Part shown: piece by piece, positions 53,273 through 61,951 of the stretch | How the letters are laid out: each line of letters starts with the position of its first letter | Numbering within the stretch: position 1 is the stretch's first letter | From: Hymenobacter edaphi | GTDB taxonomy: Bacteria; Bacteroidota; Bacteroidia; Cytophagales; Hymenobacteraceae | Direction: 5' to 3' | Assembly (NCBI RefSeq): GCF_003258365.1 | Contig: NZ_QHKM01000012.1 | Coordinates: forward strand, 1-64,000 | DNA length: 64,000 nt | Notes under the pieces: model-generated | Told to the model about the DNA's origin: nothing | What the model saw: the letters and a program-made list of their open reading frames with translations, nothing else | The model's database searches: none | Translations under genes and position numbers: made by a program

Positions 53273-54358
53273 CTACTCGTTCATCACCCGGTCCTGGTGC
53301 TGGATGGATTCCAGGTGAATGGCGTCGAGGAAGCGGTGAATGAATCCCTCGCTGAGGCCCAGCTTGGCGCCTTTCCGCACGCCTCGGTCCACGATTTCCT
53401 GCCAGCGGCCGGGCTGCAGGATGGTGATGCTGTTGTCCTTCTTGTAGCGCCCGATCTGCTCGGCCACCCCCATCCGCTTGCTGATCAGCTGCAGGATTTC
53501 GTCGTCGAGGTGGTTGATTCGCTCCCGCAGCTGGGCCAGGGCGCTGAGGTAGTCCGGCTGGTCGGTGGTTTCGCGGCGCCACACGATGCCGGCCAGCAGC
53601 TCGGCCAGGCGCTCGGGCGTCACCTGCTGGGCCGCGTCGCTCCAGGCCGCGTCGGGGTCCTGGTGGGCCTCGATCATCAGGCCGTCGAAGTCGAGGTCGG
53701 CGGCCTGCTGGGCTATGCCGTGGAGCAGCTCGCGGCGGCCGGCAATGTGGCTGGGGTCGCAGAGAATGGGCAGCTCGGGAAAGCGGCGCTTCATTTCGAT
53801 GGGCAGGTGCCACATGGGCGCGTTGCGGAATTCCGTCTGCCCGTAGCTGCTGAAGCCGCGGTGAATCAGGCCCAGCGGCCCGGTGCCCACCTGGCGCAGG
53901 CGCTCCACGGCCCCGGTCCACAGCTCCACGTCGGGGTTGAGCGGGTTTTTGATGAGCACCGGCCGGTCCACCCCGCGCAGGGCGGCGGCCACTTCCTGCA
54001 CCGAGAAGGGGTTGACGGTGGTGCGCGCCCCCAGCCAGAGCACGTCCACATCGAAGGCCAGGCAGTCCTCCACGTGCTTGGCGGTGGCCACTTCCACGGC
54101 CACGGGCAGGCCCGTCAGCTCGCGGGCCCGCACCAGCCAGGGCAGCCCCTTGGTGCCGATGCCCTCGAACAGGCCGGGCTTGGTGCGCGGCTTCCAGATG
54201 CCGGCGCGCAGCATGTTTACGCGCCCGGTGGCGGCCAGGCGCTGGCAGGTATCAAGGACCTGCGCCTCGGTTTCGGCCGAGCACGGCCCGGCAATGACCA
54301 GGGGCTTATCGGCAAGGAGCGGGTTGGTTTTCGTGGTAAGCGGGGCCGTGGGGTTCAT
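53273..54358 (-). CDS. aroG: Bifunctional DAHP synthase / chorismate mutase
   Basis: This is 361 residues. Residues 15-260 are a type I-beta DAHP synthase (AGPCSAE, RAGIWKPRTKPG, LGARTTVNPFSVQE, CDPSHIAGRRELL). The last 90 (ALAQLRERINHLDDEILQLIS, RMGVAEQIGRYKKDNSITI) are an AroQ-type chorismate mutase. It makes 3-deoxy-arabino-heptulosonate-7-phosphate from PEP and erythrose-4-phosphate and also converts chorismate to prephenate. It is the last gene of the operon with pheA, the aminotransferase and tyrA. The C-terminal chorismate mutase feeds the products of the other enzymes of the operon directly. Confidence 0.92.
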   Translation of the reverse strand: MNPTAPLTTKTNPLLADKPLVIAGPCSAETEAQVLDTCQRLAATGRVNMLRAGIWKPRTKPGLFEGIGTKGLPWLVRARELTGLPVAVEVATAKHVEDCLAFDVDVLWLGARTTVNPFSVQEVAAALRGVDRPVLIKNPLNPDVELWTGAVERLRQVGTGPLGLIHRGFSSYGQTEFRNAPMWHLPIEMKRRFPELPILCDPSHIAGRRELLHGIAQQAADLDFDGLMIEAHQDPDAAWSDAAQQVTPERLAELLAGIVWRRETTDQPDYLSALAQLRERINHLDDEILQLISKRMGVAEQIGRYKKDNSITILQPGRWQEIVDRGVRKGAKLGLSEGFIHRFLDAIHLESIQHQDRVMNE

Positions 54359-54413: not shown

Positions 54414-55259
54414 TCACTTGATGATGCGGCGGATGTGGTTGGCCTGCTCGATGAGCCGGGCGAAGGCGGCGTAGTCTTCCTGCTGTAGCAATTCGCGCAT
54501 GCGCTGCAGCTGGTGCAGGTGCTCGTCGAGCACGTCGAGCACGTTCAGGCGGTTTTGACGGAAGATGGGCACCCACATGGCGGGCGAGCTTTTGGCCAGG
54601 CGCACCGTGGAGGCGAAGCCCCCGCTGGCCAGGTCGAAAATGCGCTGTTCCTCCTTCTCTTTTTCCAGCACCGTGAGGGCCAGGGCAAAGGAGGTGATGT
54701 GCGAAATGTGCGAGACGTAGGCCGTGTGCACGTCGTGCTCGGCCGCGTCGAGGTACACCAGGCGCATGGGCAGCTGCCGAAACAGCGTTTCCACCCGTTG
54801 CAGCGCGTCCGGGTCGCTGCCCGCGGCGTCGCAGATGACGAGGGTGCGGCCCGCAAACAGCTCGGCCAAGGCGGCTTCGGGGCCCGAGTACTCGGTGCCA
54901 GCCATGGGGTGCACGGCCACAAAGCGGCCCCGGCGCGGGTGCCCGGCCACGGCGGCCAGCAGGGCGGCCTTGGTCGAGCCCGCGTCGATGACGATTTGCC
55001 GCTCGGTCACGAGGTCGAGCACCTGCGGCAGCAGCGTGAGCAGCCCGTCCACCGGCACGGCGGCTACCACGAGGTCGGCCGGCTGCACGGCCGCCGTCAG
55101 GTCGGGCGCGGCTTCGTCGATGAGGCCCAGCGCCAGGGCTTTCTGCAGGTGCGCCGGGTTCTGGTCGACGCCGATGATGCGCCTAGCCAGGCCCTGCTGC
55201 TTCAGGCTCAGAGCCAGGGAGCCGCCGATGAGCCCCACGCCGATTACAGTTACTATCAT
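54414..55259 (-). CDS. tyrA: Prephenate dehydrogenase
   Basis: This is 281 residues. The NAD-binding motif is GVGLIGGS (7-14). The family signature HPMAGTEYSGPEAA, then HISHITSFALAL and LASGGFASTVRLAKSSPAMWV follow. It oxidises and decarboxylates prephenate to 4-hydroxyphenylpyruvate for tyrosine synthesis. The length is typical of the stand-alone form without ACT domain. It sits between the aminotransferase and aroG in the operon, with the gap on its upstream side occupied by a REP-like palindrome. Confidence 0.93.
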   Translation of the reverse strand: MIVTVIGVGLIGGSLALSLKQQGLARRIIGVDQNPAHLQKALALGLIDEAAPDLTAAVQPADLVVAAVPVDGLLTLLPQVLDLVTERQIVIDAGSTKAALLAAVAGHPRRGRFVAVHPMAGTEYSGPEAALAELFAGRTLVICDAAGSDPDALQRVETLFRQLPMRLVYLDAAEHDVHTAYVSHISHITSFALALTVLEKEKEEQRIFDLASGGFASTVRLAKSSPAMWVPIFRQNRLNVLDVLDEHLHQLQRMRELLQQEDYAAFARLIEQANHIRRIIK

Positions 55260-55263
55260 GGCA

Positions 55264-55360
55264 GTAGCGTGGGCTTCAGCCCGCGTTTTTCAGAACGAAA
55301 TCAGGAACGAGAATCAGCCGCGGCGGTATCCGGGAGGACGCGGGCGGAAGCCCGCGCTAC
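55264..55360. repeat. REP-like palindrome overlapping the aminotransferase 3' end
   Basis: The arms are GTAGCGTGGGCTTCAGCCCG.. (55264-55286) and the matching complement (55338-55360), which differ at two of 23 positions. The word GTAGCGCGGGCTTCAGCCCG also forms both arms of the element at 63620-63695. The right arm lies inside the coding sequence of the aminotransferase and encodes its last residues; the left arm reaches to 4 bp before the tyrA start. Confidence 0.8.
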
Positions 55361-56524
55361 GGGCCAGCCCGCTTCGGCCAGACGCTGCTGCGCCTCCGTG
55401 AGTACCGCCGCCGGCTGGCACAAACTCACCCGCACGAACCCGTTGCCGTTGGAGCCGAAAATGCCGCCGGGCGTGATGAACACCCGCGCCCGGGCCAGCA
55501 CCGCGTCGCTGAGGGCGTAGCCGTCGGCGTCAGCGGCCGGCACCCGCGCCCACACGAACAGGCCGACCTGTGCGCGGTCGAAGGAGCAGCCCAGCGCGTC
55601 GAGCAGGCCGAACACCTGCTCGCGGCGGGCGCGGTAGGTGGCGTTCAGCTCGGCCGACCACTCCGGGCCGAGCTGCAGGGCGGCGGCGGCGGCCAGCTGC
55701 ACCGGCAAGAACATGCCCGAGTCCATGTTGCTCTTGAAGCGCAGCACCTGCTGCAAGAGGTCGGCGCGGCCGGCCAGCAGGCCCACCCGCCAGCCCGCCA
55801 GGTTATGCGACTTGCTGAGCGAGTTCAGCTCCAGGGCCACCTCGCGGGCGCCCGGCACGGCCAGCAGGCTCAGCGGCTCGTCGTTGAGAATGAAGCTGTA
55901 GGGGTTGTCGTGGACCAGCAAAATGCCGTGCTGCCGGGCAAACGCCACCAACTCGGCCAGCGCCGGCGCCGAGGCCCGGGCGCCGGTGGGCATGTGCGGG
56001 TAGTTCAGCCACATAAGCTTCACGCGGCTCAGGTCGCGCCGGGCCAGGGCGGCTAGGTCGGGCAGCCAGTCGTGGTCGGCCGTCAGGTCGTAGTCGAGGG
56101 GCGTGGCGCCGCTGAGCTGCACGGCGGCGCGGTAGGTGGGGTAGCCGGGGTTGGGAATGAGCGCCTCGTCGCCGGGCTGCAGAAAGGTCATGCACACGTG
56201 CACGATGCCCTCCTTGGAGCCCAGCAGCGGCAGCACTTCCGTTTCGGGGTCCAGCGTCACGCCGTAGCTGCGCCGGTACCAGTCGGCCACGGCCTGGCGC
56301 AGGGCGGGCACGCCCCGGTAGCTCTGGTAGGCGTGGGCATCGGGGCGCAGGGCAGCGGCGGTCAGCGCCTCCACCACGCTCGGGTGCGGCGGCAGGTCAG
56401 GGCTGCCGATGCCGAGGTTGATGACGCGGGCGCCGGCCTGGTTCAGCGCCTCAATTTCGCGCAGCTTCTGCGAGAAGTAGTATTCCTGAATGGGCGCCAG
56501 GCGGTCGGCTACGGGTATGTTCAT
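55301..56524 (-). CDS. Class I/II aminotransferase, probably aromatic
   Basis: This is 407 residues of fold-type I PLP enzyme. The PLP-Lys motif is LNSLSKSHNLAGWRVG; other conserved parts are GIGSPDLPPHPSVVEAL, NPGYPTYRAAVQLSGA and VLVHDNPYSF-like. It resembles LL-diaminopimelate/aspartate aminotransferases. In this operon it would transaminate phenylpyruvate and 4-hydroxyphenylpyruvate to Phe and Tyr, or prephenate to arogenate. Its last 18 or so residues (VARASARVLPDTAAADSRS) are encoded by the REP-like element. The ATG at 56524 is the conserved start (MNIPVADRLAPIQEYYFS). Confidence 0.82.
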   Translation of the reverse strand: MNIPVADRLAPIQEYYFSQKLREIEALNQAGARVINLGIGSPDLPPHPSVVEALTAAALRPDAHAYQSYRGVPALRQAVADWYRRSYGVTLDPETEVLPLLGSKEGIVHVCMTFLQPGDEALIPNPGYPTYRAAVQLSGATPLDYDLTADHDWLPDLAALARRDLSRVKLMWLNYPHMPTGARASAPALAELVAFARQHGILLVHDNPYSFILNDEPLSLLAVPGAREVALELNSLSKSHNLAGWRVGLLAGRADLLQQVLRFKSNMDSGMFLPVQLAAAAALQLGPEWSAELNATYRARREQVFGLLDALGCSFDRAQVGLFVWARVPAADADGYALSDAVLARARVFITPGGIFGSNGNGFVRVSLCQPAAVLTEAQQRLAEAGWPVARASARVLPDTAAADSRS

Positions 56525-56633
56525 GGTCGTTGGGGGGCGTGGTTCTGGGTGCCGGGGCACAGCGTGTATTCAGGTTGTTATGTCGAGATGTGACGTGCTG
56601 AGGCCTGAGGATGAGGTTTTTATTGCGTGTCGT

Positions 56634-57467
56634 TCAGTAAGTCTCTCCCTTTCGGTACAGGCCCAGCACCCGCACGCTCTCCGCCACTTCGTTCAGCTCG
56701 GCCAGGGCGCGCTCGAAATCCTCGGGCGCGTCGAATTCCAGGTCGGCGTGGAAGAAGTACTCCCACATGGTGCCGGGCCGCGGAAACGACTGCAGCTTGC
56801 TGAGGTTGATGCCGTGGGCCGCCACCCGCGTGAGTACCTCGGCCAGCGCCCCGCGCCGGTGGGCGGTGTGGAAGTACAGCGAGGCCTTGCTGGCGCCCTC
56901 GGCCGGCGCGGCATCGGCGGCGCGCTGCACCACCAGAAAGCGCGTGTAGTTGTCGGCGGCGGAGTGAATGTCGGCGGCCACGATATCCAGCCCAAACAGC
57001 CGGGCGGCCAGCTCGCCGGCTACGGCGGCCACGCCCGTCAGGCCTTGCTCCCGGATGCGCTGGGCGCTCAGGGCCGTGTCCTCCGTCTCGACGAGGCGCC
57101 AGTGCGGGTGCTGGCCAAGGAAGCCGGTGCACTGCTGCAGGGCCATGGGGTGGGAGTGAACCTCGCGCAGGGCGGCCAGCGTCTGGCCGGGCAGGGCCAT
57201 CAGGTGCTGGCGGATCTGCAGGTACACTTCGCCAGTGATGCGCAGCTCGGCTTGCTGCAGCAGGCGGTAGTTGGGCAGAATGCTCCCGGCAATGGAGTTT
57301 TCAATGGCCATCAGTCCGGCCCCGGCCTCGCCCTGCGCCACCTGCCGCAGCACCTCGGCGAAGGTGGCGCAGGGGCGCACGGCGCCGAGCTGGGGCCCGA
57401 AGTAGTGGCCGGCGGCAATCTGGTGGAAGCTGCCGGCGAAGCCCTGAATGGCAACGGAATGCGTCAT
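56634..57467 (-). CDS. pheA: Prephenate dehydratase
   Basis: This is 277 residues. The catalytic domain runs 1-180 (VAIQGFAGSFHQIAAGHYF, GLMAIENSIAGSILPNYRLL, HSHPMALQQCTGFL, and NYTRF with the catalytic Thr). A C-terminal ACT domain (ASLYFHTAHRRGALAEVLTRV, INLSKLQSFPRPGTMWEYFF) binds phenylalanine for feedback control; the usual ESRP is SFPRP here. It decarboxylates and dehydrates prephenate to phenylpyruvate. It is the first structural gene of the operon, preceded by two leader peptides and terminators. Confidence 0.94.
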   Translation of the reverse strand: MTHSVAIQGFAGSFHQIAAGHYFGPQLGAVRPCATFAEVLRQVAQGEAGAGLMAIENSIAGSILPNYRLLQQAELRITGEVYLQIRQHLMALPGQTLAALREVHSHPMALQQCTGFLGQHPHWRLVETEDTALSAQRIREQGLTGVAAVAGELAARLFGLDIVAADIHSAADNYTRFLVVQRAADAAPAEGASKASLYFHTAHRRGALAEVLTRVAAHGINLSKLQSFPRPGTMWEYFFHADLEFDAPEDFERALAELNEVAESVRVLGLYRKGETY

Positions 57468-57474
57468 GCGAACG

Positions 57475-57509
57475 GAAATAAAAAAGGGCCTCCGCGCTGC
57501 GGGGCCCTT
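57475..57509 (-). terminator. Attenuator terminator 2, just before pheA
   Basis: On the minus strand AAGGGCCCCGC (57509-57499), loop AGC, then GCGGAGGCCCTT form an 11-bp stem with a bulged A, followed by TTTTTATTT. The T run ends 8 bp before the pheA ATG. It lies downstream of leader peptide 2. Its 5' arm also pairs with 57550-57558 (see antiterminator). Confidence 0.85.
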
Positions 57510-57558
57510 GGGGTGCTGGTCGAGAAAACTGCCTCAGACTGCGCAATAGGGGCCCCGC
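57499..57558 (-). promoter_or_regulatory. Candidate antiterminator of attenuator 2
   Basis: The RNA word GCGGGGCCC (57558-57550), inside leader 2 codons 20-22, is exactly complementary over 9 nt to GGGCCCCGC (57507-57499), the 5' arm of terminator 2. The two pairings exclude each other. A ribosome stalled at the Phe/Tyr run (codons 7-16) leaves the upper word free; one that reaches the stop at 57536 covers it. Confidence 0.7.
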
Positions 57559-57614
57559 TGCTGCCGGTAGAAGCAGTAATAGCAGCCAAAAAAGAAGCAG
57601 GCGGAGCGGAGCAT
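57534..57614 (-). CDS. Phe/Tyr leader peptide 2
   Basis: This is 26 residues from ATG 57614 to TGA 57534. It reads MLRSACFFFGCYYCFYRQQR and then GPYCAV. Residues 7-16 hold four Phe and three Tyr (FFF, YY, FY), followed by one more Tyr at 23. The dense aromatic run, position directly ahead of terminator 2 and pheA, and the perfect antiterminator pairing are the reasons to call it an attenuation leader. No ribosome-binding site was needed for the call; Bacteroidota rarely show one. Confidence 0.8.
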   Translation of the reverse strand: MLRSACFFFGCYYCFYRQQRGPYCAV

Positions 57615-57634
57615 GAGCGGGTTGAAGTCGGGCG

Positions 57635-57666
57635 AAAAAAAAGCGCCTCCGGGGCAGGAGGCGCTT
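57635..57666 (-). terminator. Attenuator terminator 1
   Basis: On the minus strand AAGCGCCTCC (57666-57657) pairs perfectly with GGAGGCGCTT (57650-57641) around 6 nt and runs into eight T residues. It lies 41 bp after the stop of leader 1 and 21 bp before the start of leader 2. A competing pairing of the terminator 5' arm GCCTC with GAGGC at 57702-57698 is possible but short. Confidence 0.88.
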
Positions 57667-57706
57667 GTAAAGTCAGGGTTGATGCTGCTACAAAGAGGCC
57701 TCGCTG

Positions 57707-57766
57707 CTACGCGTGAGCGTAGTAGAAGTAGTAGCTAAAAAAGTACTGGGCCTTGGAAGTCAGCAT
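57707..57766 (-). CDS. Phe/Tyr leader peptide 1
   Basis: This is 19 residues from ATG 57766 to TAG 57707: MLTSKAQYFFSYYFYYAHA. Eight of the nine residues 8-16 are aromatic, three Phe and five Tyr. It lies directly after a promoter-like sequence and before terminator 1. The bias fits exactly the end products of the operon (Phe and Tyr), as in classical phe, his or trp leaders. Confidence 0.85.
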   Translation of the reverse strand: MLTSKAQYFFSYYFYYAHA

Positions 57767-57789
57767 GGGGGTATTCGATGCGAATAAGC

Positions 57790-57820
57790 CAAAGATGGAG
57801 AAGCCCGGCGAGGAATGCAA
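57790..57820 (-). promoter_or_regulatory. Promoter of the Phe/Tyr operon leader
   Basis: On the minus strand TTGC (57820-57817) is followed after 19 bp by CATCTTTG (57797-57790), one base from the -7 consensus TAnnTTTG. Transcription would begin near 57783, about 17 nt before leader 1. The upstream stretch 57821-57994 shows no gene. Confidence 0.5.
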
Positions 57821-58980: not shown

Positions 58981-60921
58981 CTAGCGGCGGCCGTAGGCGC
59001 CGGGCGTGAGGCTGGCGGCGGTTTCCATCAGGCGGATGCACTCGGCGCGGTAGCCGTCGTCGTCCTTGCCGCGGGCGGTGCGGGCCAGCTCCACGGTATT
59101 CTGCCAGGTGGCCTCGCCGCGCCGCTCCGACTGGCGCAGCAGCAGGCTCATTTGAGCCACGGCCGCCGCCCAGCGCAGGTTGTTGGAGGCCCCGGCCAGC
59201 GCGGCGGGGGCGGCAGCGGGCAGCGCCCGGCTGAGCAGGCTGCTCGTCCGGCCCTGGGGCTGCTTGTAGCGCATTTTTACCGTCAATAACTCGGTGGCCG
59301 CGGCTCCGGCGGTTGTCGGCGGGGCGGGCTGGTACTTCAGCCCATCCACCACCGGCGGGGCACCCACGGGCACCACTTCGTACAGGGCCGTCACCTGCTG
59401 GCCGGCGCCCAGCTCGCCCGCGTCCTTCTGGTCGTTGTTGAAGTCTTCGTCGGCCAGCAGGCGGTTTTCGTAGCCGATGAGGCGGTAGGCCTGCACCTGG
59501 GCGGGGTTGAATTCCACCTGCAGCTTCACGTCCTTGGCCAGGGTGAACAAGGTGCCGCCGAACTGCTGCACCAGCACCCGCCGGGCCTCGCCGAGCTGGT
59601 CGATGTAGGCGTAGTTGCCGTTGCCCTTGTCGGCCAGGCGCTCCATCTTGCTGTCCTGCAGGTTGCCGGTGCCGAAGCCGAGCACCGACAAGAACACGCC
59701 CGATTCCCGCTCCTGCGTGATGAGGTGCTCCATGGCGTCGTCGGAGGATTCGCCCACGTTGAAGTCGCCGTCGGAGCACAGAATCACGCGGTTGTTGCCC
59801 TCCTTATTATAGTGCTGCCGGGCCGTGGCGTAAGCCAGGCGCAATCCTTCCCCGCCGGCCGTCGAGCCGCCGGCCTCCAGCCGGTCCAGCGCCGCCACGA
59901 TGTCGCCCTTGCGGGTGCCGGGCGTGGGCGGCAGCACCACCCCGGCGGCCCCGGCATACACCACCAATGATACCTGGTCCTGCGGGCGCAGCTGCTGCAC
60001 CAGCTGCTTCAGGCCGGCCTTCACCAGCGGCAGCTTGTCCTCGCTCTGCATCGAGCCCGACACGTCGATGAGGAACACCAGGTTGGCCGCCGGCAGATTT
60101 TCCACCGGCACGGTGCGCGCCTGCAGCCCGATGAGCACCAGCTGGTGGGCGGGAGCCCAGGGGCAGCGGGCCTGCTCCAGGTGCAGGGCGGCCGGGGCCT
60201 CGGCGGCGGGCTGGGGGTAGTCGTAGCGGAAGTAATTCACCAGCTCCTCGGTGCGCACCGCGTCGGCGGGCGGCAGCTGGGCCTGCTCGGTGAGGTAACG
60301 GCGCACGTTGGAGTAGCTGGCCGCGTCCACGTCGATACTGAAAGTGCTCAGCGGGGCCTTGCTCACCGGCTGAAACGGGTTTTCGGTCTGGTGGGCGTAA
60401 GCTTCGCCCTCGGTGCGGCGCCGGGCTTTTTCTTCCTTGCTGAAGTAGGCCGGGCCCGCAGCCCGTTTGGCTTTGCTCGGCGCCATAGAGCGGTTGCCCC
60501 GAACCCGGACGCCGGCCACGCGGCCCGCCAGCCCGTAACCCGTCACCACGCATTCACTCAGAGCCTTGGCGTCGGCAGACAGAGCTACGTTCAATGCCTG
60601 GCCGCCGCGGGCTGGTTGCTCCTGGGTGAGGTAGCCCACGCTGGAAAACTGCAGCGTGACTTTGCGCGCCCCCGGGGTGAGCAGCAGGCTGTAGCGGCCG
60701 TCGTGGCTGGTGCTGACGCCGTTCGTCGTGCCCTTCACGAGCACCGTCACGCCGGGAATGCCCTGGCCGCTGGCCCGGTCCGTCACCCGCCCGCGGACGG
60801 TGAGCGAATCCACGACGGCCGATTCGGGCCGCACGCCCAGGGGCGTTTGCGCCGTAGCCGAGTGAACGTAAGCGCTGCTGAGGGCGGCAGCGAGTAAGGA
60901 GCAACATAAAACGGTGCGCAT
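58981..60921 (-). CDS. Secreted VWA-domain protein with CarboxypepD_reg-like N-terminus
   Basis: This is 646 residues. A signal peptide (MRTVLCCSLLAAALSSAYVHS) is followed by a CarboxypepD_reg-like domain (VRGRVTDRASGQGIPGVTVLV, near 40-125). A linker leads to the VWF-type A domain (about 280-460) whose MIDAS reads LIDVSGSMQSE, with STAGGEGLRLAY and CSDGDFNVG as the other metal loops. The segment NPFQPVSKAPLSTFSIDVDAASYSNVRRYL and the C-terminal DUF3520-like part are typical of this exported VWA family. Such proteins bind ligands through the metal; the partner is unknown. It diverges from the sigma factor gene across the palindrome and tandem array. Confidence 0.85.
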   Translation of the reverse strand: MRTVLCCSLLAAALSSAYVHSATAQTPLGVRPESAVVDSLTVRGRVTDRASGQGIPGVTVLVKGTTNGVSTSHDGRYSLLLTPGARKVTLQFSSVGYLTQEQPARGGQALNVALSADAKALSECVVTGYGLAGRVAGVRVRGNRSMAPSKAKRAAGPAYFSKEEKARRRTEGEAYAHQTENPFQPVSKAPLSTFSIDVDAASYSNVRRYLTEQAQLPPADAVRTEELVNYFRYDYPQPAAEAPAALHLEQARCPWAPAHQLVLIGLQARTVPVENLPAANLVFLIDVSGSMQSEDKLPLVKAGLKQLVQQLRPQDQVSLVVYAGAAGVVLPPTPGTRKGDIVAALDRLEAGGSTAGGEGLRLAYATARQHYNKEGNNRVILCSDGDFNVGESSDDAMEHLITQERESGVFLSVLGFGTGNLQDSKMERLADKGNGNYAYIDQLGEARRVLVQQFGGTLFTLAKDVKLQVEFNPAQVQAYRLIGYENRLLADEDFNNDQKDAGELGAGQQVTALYEVVPVGAPPVVDGLKYQPAPPTTAGAAATELLTVKMRYKQPQGRTSSLLSRALPAAAPAALAGASNNLRWAAAVAQMSLLLRQSERRGEATWQNTVELARTARGKDDDGYRAECIRLMETAASLTPGAYGRR

Positions 60922-60988
60922 CGAGCCAGGCAGTTAGAAGGTGATAGATGCCTGGTTGATGCGGGCCCCGGCGGGATTCCACAAGCGG

Positions 60989-61045
60989 GGGTAAAAAAGA
61001 TGCGGCGCCGGGTAAATTTTACCCGGCGCCGCATCTTTTTTACCC
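60989..61045. repeat. 57-bp perfect palindrome
   Basis: The arms 60989-61016 and 61018-61045 are perfect reverse complements over 28 bp with a single central T. The left arm starts GGGTAAAAAAGATGCGGCGC. It lies 67 bp upstream of the VWA gene start in the divergent gap to the sigma factor. Its right half overlaps the first unit of the 42-bp tandem array. Confidence 0.92.
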
Positions 61046-61260
61046 GAGGCCGGGTGGATTTTACCCGACCGCGCATCTTATTTACCCGAGCTTGGGGGAA
61101 TTTTACCCAACGTCGCGTCTTTTTTATCCGAGTTCGGGTGAGTTTTACCCGATGCCGCGTCTTCACTACCCGATGTCAGGTAAAAAAGACGCACCGGGGC
61201 GTGCCGGGAATCGGTAGTCGGGTAAATGCTACCCAACGCCGCCTCTTTTCACCCAGCTGC
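61010..61260. repeat. Tandem array of 42-bp (2 x 21-bp) units
   Basis: Units begin at 61010, 61052, 61094, 61136, 61178 and 61220. The first four share GGGTRRATTTTACCC and CGCGTCTTTTTTACCCGAG-like halves; each unit is two diverged 21-bp halves built on TTTTACCCG. The fifth is more diverged and the sixth is nearly complete. The array fills the divergent gap upstream of the sigma factor promoter. Open frames through it give heptad peptides (RRRVNFT, RGRVDFT) on one strand and similar ones on the other and are judged by-products. Confidence 0.85.
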
Positions 61261-61308
61261 TGCTCCGACCTTGGTGATGGAGTTGGAAGGCTGCCTGCCC
61301 CGGCTCCG

Positions 61309-61316
61309 TATCTTTA
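61309..61316 (+). promoter_or_regulatory. -7-like element TATCTTTA of the sigma factor gene
   Basis: TATCTTTA is one base off TAnnTTTG. TTG at 61283-61285 lies 23 bp upstream as a possible -33. Transcription would start near 61323, 14 nt before the ATG at 61337. Confidence 0.5.
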
Positions 61317-61336
61317 GCATTCCGTTTCTGCGCCCG

Positions 61337-61951
61337 ATGTTTTCCCTGTTTCGCCGCCCCAAGACGCCCGCCGCCGCCGCGCCGCCCACCGAGGCGGAGC
61401 TGCTGGCGCGCTACCGGGCCGACGGCGACGTGCAGGACCTCGGCCGGCTCTACGAGCCCTACTTCCACCTCGTCTACGGCGTGTGCCTGCGCTACCTGCG
61501 CGCCGAGGACGACGCCAAGGACGCGGTCATGCAGATTTTCGAGAAGCTCATCGTCGATTTGCGCCGCCACGAGGTGCAGAACCTGAGCAGCTGGCTGCAC
61601 ACCACCGCCCGCAACTACTGCCTGATGGAGCTGCGCCGCCGCAAATCAGCCCCCGATACCGTGGAATTTGGCCTGCCGGGCGCCCCGGGTGTGGAATCCG
61701 AAGCGGCCCTGCATCTGGTAAGCGACGATGACGACGACTTTCCCACCGAGGAGCACTTGCAGCAGCTGGAAGCGGCCCTGGCCCGCCTCCCGCCGGAGCA
61801 GCACCGCTGCCTCGAACTATTCTACCGCCAGCAGCTCTCGTACCAGGAAATTGCCGCCGCCACCGGCTACGACCTCAAACAGGTGAAAAGCTTCCTGCAA
61901 AACGGGAAGCGCAACCTCAAACTCTCCCTTGCCAGCCATGTCGCCCGCTGA
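61337..61951 (+). CDS. ECF-type RNA polymerase sigma factor
   Basis: This is 204 residues. Region 2 reads LYEPYFHLVYGVCLRYLRAEDDAKDAVMQIFEKL (about 35-70) and region 4 LPPEQHRCLELFYRQQLSYQEIAAATGYDLKQVKSFLQNGKRNLK (about 155-200), whose helix-turn-helix contacts the -35-type element. An acidic loop (SDDDDDFPTEEHL) joins them. The downstream anti-sigma gene overlaps its end by 14 bp. The frame is open to 61226, but upstream codons run through the tandem array. Confidence 0.9.
   Translation: MFSLFRRPKTPAAAAPPTEAELLARYRADGDVQDLGRLYEPYFHLVYGVCLRYLRAEDDAKDAVMQIFEKLIVDLRRHEVQNLSSWLHTTARNYCLMELRRRKSAPDTVEFGLPGAPGVESEAALHLVSDDDDDFPTEEHLQQLEAALARLPPEQHRCLELFYRQQLSYQEIAAATGYDLKQVKSFLQNGKRNLKLSLASHVAR

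Follow-up and report, generated by a model that had tools for sequence, protein, structure and literature searches.

Textbooks present attenuation as the model case of ribosome-coupled control, and the single leader-peptide attenuators of the trp, his and pheA type combine cognate codons with a switch between terminator and antiterminator. The leaders analyzed here fit this ribosome-mediated, amino-acid class, as they are short ORFs dense in cognate codons that precede the cognate operon.

The closest described systems are given here as they appear in the available parts of the respective papers. In Bacteroides thetaiotaomicron, a prediction database places an attenuator before pheA>hisHb>aroA-aroQ>tyrA, while 'two attenuator units' were predicted for the aromatic supraoperon of Streptococcus pneumoniae (PMC1173090). 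The tandem attenuators of Salmonella mgtCBR were called a singular case, and their structures are unlike intrinsic terminators (PMC3641672). For msrD, the authors considered the two attenuators to be a double-lock against basal expression (PMC10314930), and in some Gammaproteobacteria the rimP-leader carries two terminators in tandem (PMC2965389). In Flavobacterium psychrophilum, a structured element with no Rfam match was found before pheA, and leader-peptide attenuation was suggested for amino-acid operons (PMC9723704). How steeply a single gate can respond is the subject of theoretical work (Elf and Ehrenberg 2005, PMC1183508).

Upstream of pheA in the window (the whole 64,000-nt stretch of Hymenobacter edaphi DNA that was analyzed), we find two gates. 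Judging from sequence comparison, we give a probability of roughly 0.75 to the reading that two complete ribosome-mediated attenuators lie in series on one pheA-aminotransferase-tyrA-DAHP synthase/chorismate mutase leader transcript, where they would form a double lock.

Two leader modules and the operon they precede

All features of the locus lie on the minus strand. Leader peptide 1 (57766-57707), an ORF that is kept in relatives, has 19 amino acids, MLTSKAQYFFSYYFYYAHA, with five Tyr and three Phe within nine codons (aromatics at codons 8-10 and 12-16). Leader peptide 2 (57614-57534), defined by its ORF and by alignment, has 26 amino acids, MLRSACFFFGCYYCFYRQQRGPYCAV, with four Phe and three Tyr within ten codons (aromatics at codons 7-9, 12-13 and 15-16). 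At both gates, an intrinsic terminator is present between the leader ORF and the first gene. Terminator 1 (57635-57666), identified by folding and by covariation in 59 aligned relatives, consists of the hairpin AAGCGCCTCC-TGCCCC-GGAGGCGCTT and a T run reaching 57635; folded alone, the hairpin has -19.4 kcal/mol (z -5.8 versus shuffles). Terminator 2 (57475-57509), identified by folding and alignment, consists of AAGGGCCCCGC-AGC-GCGGAGGCCCTT followed by a T run (57509-57475), and its hairpin folded alone has -19.6 kcal/mol (z -3.7 versus shuffles). Both ORFs and both folds of the original prediction, namely two minus-strand leader peptides each with its own terminator hairpin, were thus recovered, and its counts of eight aromatics in nine codons and of four Phe plus three Tyr in ten codons were reproduced. 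The window's leader 2 carries Cys (TGC) at two sites where loci L002 and L003 carry Phe. Cys is likewise found in genome G003 (locus L111), where pheA itself is in two frame-split pieces.

The leaders are followed by pheA, a prephenate dehydratase with an ACT domain (56634-57467), a class I/II aminotransferase that is presumably aromatic, its substrate being taken from context (55301-56560), tyrA, a prephenate dehydrogenase (54414-55259), and a DAHP synthase fused to a type II chorismate mutase (53273-54358). These identities hold by Pfam and NCBIfam, in agreement with the pheA-aminotransferase-tyrA-aroG operon that had been proposed. The order pheA-aminotransferase-tyrA-DAHP synthase is present in every tandem locus (18 of 18) found in the best 80 of 569 relatives. 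It also holds for 43 of 47 one-module loci for which 4.2 kb or more of downstream sequence was available. As the order is kept in tandem and in most one-module loci, gate number does not track operon content.

The operon shows further variation in its occurrence and ancestry. No pheA match at E 0.001 was obtained in four of eight genomes of the window's genus and, among the matches listed, in 37 of 204 family genomes, some of which are incomplete; loss of Phe synthesis is possible in the genomes lacking a match. In the PheA tree, the Hymenobacter-type PheA groups with a Chitinophagaceae set (joint clade support 99) and does not join PheA from other genera in its own family, so that transfer or replacement of the operon is possible. 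Elsewhere in the window, repeated RVKxTR or RVNFTR-like units are encoded by ORFs of both strands at 60783-61317, beside which an ORF at 61226-61951 appears sigma factor-like by eye only.

Occurrence of tandem modules and controls for chance

Our analysis was based on overlapping samples of pheA loci, with matches in 4 of 8 genomes of the genus, at least 167 of 204 of the family, 40 of 58 relatives and 340 of 395 of the phylum, and on a further sample of GTDB contigs (the best 80 of 569 relatives). Upstream DNA was taken for part of the family and phylum matches. The resulting 302 loci, after removal of nine duplicates or second pieces (L009, L112, L119, L125, L132, L133, L137, L143 and L218), yielded 293 distinct upstream regions. 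A module was defined as a short ORF with at least five Phe, Tyr or Trp in nine residues together with a folding-based terminator. Two modules were detected in 102 regions, one in 173 and none in 18, and it should be considered that some one-module scores (e.g. L129 and L211) may be misses of the detector. Reverse complements of the same regions yielded one module in 1 of 293 cases, dinucleotide shuffles in 5 of 1465, and neither control ever yielded two. Tandem modules before pheA are not due to chance, and the original proposal of two gates in series before pheA is supported, the arrangement being kept in relatives.

These controls, which exclude chance peptides, also bear on the alternative that another RNA sensor, a T-box or a known riboswitch, operates here. 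No supporting point was found for it, and no Rfam family, leader families and T-box included, matched within the 64 kb window at the gathering score; we consider it scarcely credible. A tRNA search of the window found none. In the window's own genome, runs of five consecutive Phe/Tyr codons occur at 13 positions, versus 20 for the backwards pattern used as a control. Among these 13 loci, the pheA pair alone combines a short aromatic ORF with a strong T-run terminator downstream, and no other convincing Phe/Tyr leader was found among them; one other, L306, has a weak hairpin of -11 kcal. We also considered a hidden first leader of other composition before the upstream terminators of 21 loci, mostly of Chitinophagaceae. 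The short ORFs found there have no aromatic run, for which reason this candidate was rejected and we take these terminators to be the ends of upstream genes.

Tandem modules are concentrated in three clades, while a single gate is the usual form among the other Bacteroidia loci sampled. The detector found 83 in the Hymenobacter PheA clade, including 7 of 7 Hymenobacter loci among the best 80 of 569 GTDB contigs. For the tree, this becomes 84 of 109 leaves, as L111, the upstream pheA piece of G003, was scored as one module by the detector and set to two by hand because both leaders are visible. Another 11 are Chitinophaga loci, which are all of the loci so named among the best 80 of 569 GTDB contigs, and seven belong to a second clade of the family (L215, L283, L284, L286, L292, L299 and L301). 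One further tandem locus (L232) lies outside the three clades. On the PheA tree, which was built with FastTree and has several poorly supported inner nodes, at least 10 changes between tandem and not tandem are required, a count that does not separate gain from loss.

In the Hymenobacter clade, 25 of 109 leaves were scored with one module and are nested among tandem leaves. In six one-module loci (L144, L151, L152, L154, L164 and L173), the leader begins like leader 1 and ends with LPGSRAAVL or a near match to it, which looks like the outcome of a merger of two gates. In L006, L007 and a 16-leaf one-module clade, the terminator resembles terminator 1 (AGCGCC...GGCGCT), which suggests that gate 2 was lost.

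The number of changes on the tree, the 25 one-module leaves and the two Cys sites of leader 2 in the window, where L002 and L003 carry Phe, would be in line with the second gate being redundant, a duplicate kept by drift while one gate does the measurable work. As aromatic runs, terminators and arms that match them are maintained in both modules across 83 loci, we regard such redundancy as unlikely.

Alternative pairing and the residues probably read at each gate

Each module contains a candidate antiterminator. Arm 1 (57689-57707) opens with the final base of the stop codon of leader 1, and its pairing partner at 57669-57654 comprises the 5' strand of terminator 1 together with the loop (duplex -19.6 kcal/mol). 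Arm 2, GCGGGGCCC (57550-57558), lies within leader 2 codons 19-22, directly past the aromatic run, and pairs with GGGCCCCGC in terminator 2 (57507-57499; duplex -27.1 kcal/mol). The unconstrained folds differ between the modules: in module 2, the minimum-energy fold of 57585-57470 contains the antiterminator pairing, while in module 1, that of 57740-57635 contains the terminator and a possible protector stem, in which CUACGC (57717-57722) pairs with GCGUAG (57712-57707). In the same fold, a near-invariant TTGTAGC farther downstream pairs with GCUAC of leader 1.

Covariation was examined among the 83 tandem loci of the Hymenobacter clade, from which near-duplicates had been removed, with 59 loci in one alignment and 58 in a second that also lacks L118, whose second ORF is over-long. 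Columns were counted for terminator 1 only. In the alignment of 59 loci, its covariation score was 0.133, versus 0.086 for shuffled alignments, none of which (0 of 500) scored as high. Changes on both sides were seen at four pairs, a number that 2 of 500 shuffles attained. Of the counted pairs, the outermost is open in 45 of 59 loci and an inner one in 22 of 57. For the antiterminators, duplex permutation was used rather than column counting because the register shifts between clades, and it should be noted that shared ancestry remains in these permutations. In the Hymenobacter set, own arm:terminator duplexes were stronger than permuted ones at gate 1 (-17.9 versus -13.8; 0 of 2000 permutations) and at gate 2 (-17.1 versus -15.7; 0 of 2000), and gate 1 of Chitinophaga also gave 0 of 2000. 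Arm covariation was not significant for gate 2 of Chitinophaga (213 of 2000) or for the two modules of the seven-locus clade (446 and 1470 of 2000). For both gates of the Hymenobacter set and for gate 1 of Chitinophaga, the arm, as predicted from sequence, is mutually exclusive with the terminator and covaries with it. The leader conservation and the covariation by which the original prediction was to be checked are present in the Hymenobacter set, the covariation for terminator 1 and for the arms.

The arms also tend to match their own gate. In the Hymenobacter set, arm 1 prefers its own terminator over that of the other gate in 73 of 83 loci and arm 2 in 67 of 83; in Chitinophaga, both do so in 11 of 11, and in the seven-locus clade, arm 1 favors its own in 4 of 7. 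The gate 1 arm varies together with its target between clades (e.g. L001, L005 and L008). This specificity has limits: compared with the terminators of other loci, the own terminator was better in only 72% (gate 1) and 60% (gate 2) of swaps, 72% and 45% of arms, respectively, beat shuffled arms by more than 2 sd, and some arms have a stronger partner in the terminator of another clade than in their own (L165, L034 and L035 at gate 1, L008 at gate 2). In the window, arm 1 pairs with terminator 2 at -18.1 kcal/mol, versus -19.6 for its own, so that by energy the insulation of the gates is imperfect.

How a ribosome would bear on this pairing was modeled by masking an assumed footprint around the first nucleotide of the A-site codon, reaching from 18 nt upstream to 12 nt downstream of it. 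In the model, antiterminator capture at gate 1 was 0.78 and 0.77 at Phe and Tyr codons versus 0.46 at the stop codon, and at gate 2 it was 0.72 for both residues versus 0.48; in the model lacking a ribosome, capture was also high (0.68 and 0.67, respectively). An aromatic stall exceeded the stop state in 74 of 83 loci at gate 1 and in 72 of 83 at gate 2, and in 9 and 11 loci, respectively, no aromatic stall exceeded it by 0.1.

As for the residues sensed, the original prediction held that a Tyr-rich first gate and a Phe-rich second gate could check the two branch products in turn. Such a division of labor, with leader 1 reading Tyr and leader 2 reading Phe, agrees with the window's own counts of 5Y:3F and 4F:3Y. 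It also agrees with a slight trend among the 83 Hymenobacter-clade pairs, which are related sequences: the Phe share of leader 1 is lower than that of leader 2 in 49, higher in 19 and equal in 15, and the last four aromatics are mostly YFYY or YYFY in leader 1 and YFFY or YFFF in leader 2. However, in all 102 tandem loci each leader contains Phe as well as Tyr, and the Phe shares of leaders 1 and 2 are nearly equal in the Hymenobacter clade (0.49/0.53), in Chitinophaga (0.58/0.60) and in the seven-locus clade (0.71/0.72), which is Phe-rich in both. Phe and Tyr also swap at the same sites. In the 74 of 83 loci that remain when other leader lengths are excluded, codon -12 of leader 1 is F in 38 and Y in 33 and codon -5 is F in 36 and Y in 37, although codons -10 (F in 71 of 74) and -4 (Y in 68 of 74) are nearly fixed; because of such swaps, the second codon position of the leader 1 aromatic run is the most variable (entropy by codon position 0.25/0.79/0.56). 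As the stall model, too, gives equal release for Phe and Tyr, divided labor is distinctly improbable and the claim of a Tyr gate followed by a Phe gate fails, with the slight compositional trend being what is left of it. Each gate instead appears to read Phe and Tyr together. Trp is found in leader 1 of 11 of 11 Chitinophaga loci and in leader 2 of 0 of 11, as well as in four leader 2 cores of the Hymenobacter clade. Its presence in Chitinophaga leader 1 fits the fact that DAHP synthase feeds all three aromatic amino acids.

Probable series arrangement and comparison with described systems

For a double lock, both gates would have to lie on the same RNA. The gap from the end of terminator 1 to the leader 2 ATG is short (median 23 nt). 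In Chitinophaga, the motif TAnnTTTG, which we take to be the consensus of the Bacteroidota -7 element, precedes leader 1 in 10 of 11 loci and leader 2 in 1 of 11. Given this gap and motif distribution, one promoter followed by two gates is likely, with the best support in Chitinophaga. The alternative that each gate has its own promoter, such that the gates are not in series, could draw on the rarity of the motif before leader 1 in the Hymenobacter clade (4 of 83, and 0 before leader 2) and on its absence before either leader in the seven-locus clade (0 of 7). With about 23 nt between terminator 1 and the leader 2 ATG and with the Chitinophaga distribution, we consider separate promoters very improbable. 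The looser motif NAnnTTTG occurs in the Hymenobacter clade before leader 1 in 25 and before leader 2 in 1 of 83 loci, versus 4 and 11 on the opposite strand. In the window itself, a weak promoter candidate of the Bacteroidota type (57790-57820) consists of TTG (57820-57818), 20 nt and CATCTTTG (57797-57790), the latter being one base off TAnnTTTG.

For two attenuators in series, we infer a single transcript, ribosome stalling, multiplicative gating and a resulting benefit, as follows. A ribosome waiting for Phe or Tyr would leave the downstream arm free, the free arm would capture the 5' strand of the terminator, and RNA polymerase would read on. A ribosome that finishes the peptide would cover or disrupt the arm, allowing the terminator to form; at gate 1, the arm would lie beneath a ribosome positioned on the stop codon and stay clear of one on the aromatic run. 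As RNA polymerase would have to pass both gates, the probabilities of read-through would multiply. Such a double lock would leak less when Phe and Tyr are plentiful and would respond more steeply to their shortage. Counting against this reading, many relatives make do with a single gate.

More broadly, serial attenuation by the same signal may be evolvable for steepness and leak, with gates repeatedly gained or lost in Bacteroidota before a largely unchanged operon and open to retuning, as for Trp at gate 1 of Chitinophaga, although we put this forward tentatively, at somewhat less than even odds. If true, Chitinophaga would sense all three end products fed by DAHP synthase, with Trp sensed at gate 1 only and Phe and Tyr at gate 2. 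The 275 of 293 pheA loci with one (173) or two (102) gates offer a naturally graded set for measuring what a second gate does to leak, range and sensitivity.

The comparative evidence makes a strong case for the anatomy and an inferential one for the function. In the literature searched, mostly open-access and among the matches listed, we found no tandem leader-peptide attenuators with the same signal and intrinsic terminators before an amino-acid operon. The original statement that no such tandem pair had been described thus stands for the same signal and operon but not for tandem leader-ORF attenuators in general, which are known in mgtCBR and msrD. The mgtCBR leader likewise has two short ORFs that both control elongation into the same operon, but as described in the available part of that paper, its signals are ATP and proline, their effect is additive and the operon is non-biosynthetic (PMC3641672). 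An mgtCBR-type tandem attenuator was therefore rejected for this locus, as the pheA leaders carry the same residues and have intrinsic terminators. In the rimP-leader, too, one terminator follows another, and a potential antiterminator accompanies the first of them; amino-acid leader peptides are not mentioned in the portion of the paper available (PMC2965389). The Flavobacterium psychrophilum pheA element is, like the window, from Bacteroidota; a tandem pair is not mentioned in the available text (PMC9723704). Streptococcus pneumoniae also has two predicted attenuators in one aromatic amino-acid cluster, but in the available material the second unit lies inside the cluster after tyrA (Table 7) and not in tandem before the first gene (PMC1173090). 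The logic of msrD, as far as the accessible sections describe it, is the same double-lock, although the leader peptides there sense macrolides and the gene confers resistance (PMC10314930). Closest in gene content is the predicted attenuator of Bacteroides thetaiotaomicron, which, in the part of the source available, precedes nearly the same operon with one gate, versus two here (PMC1173090).
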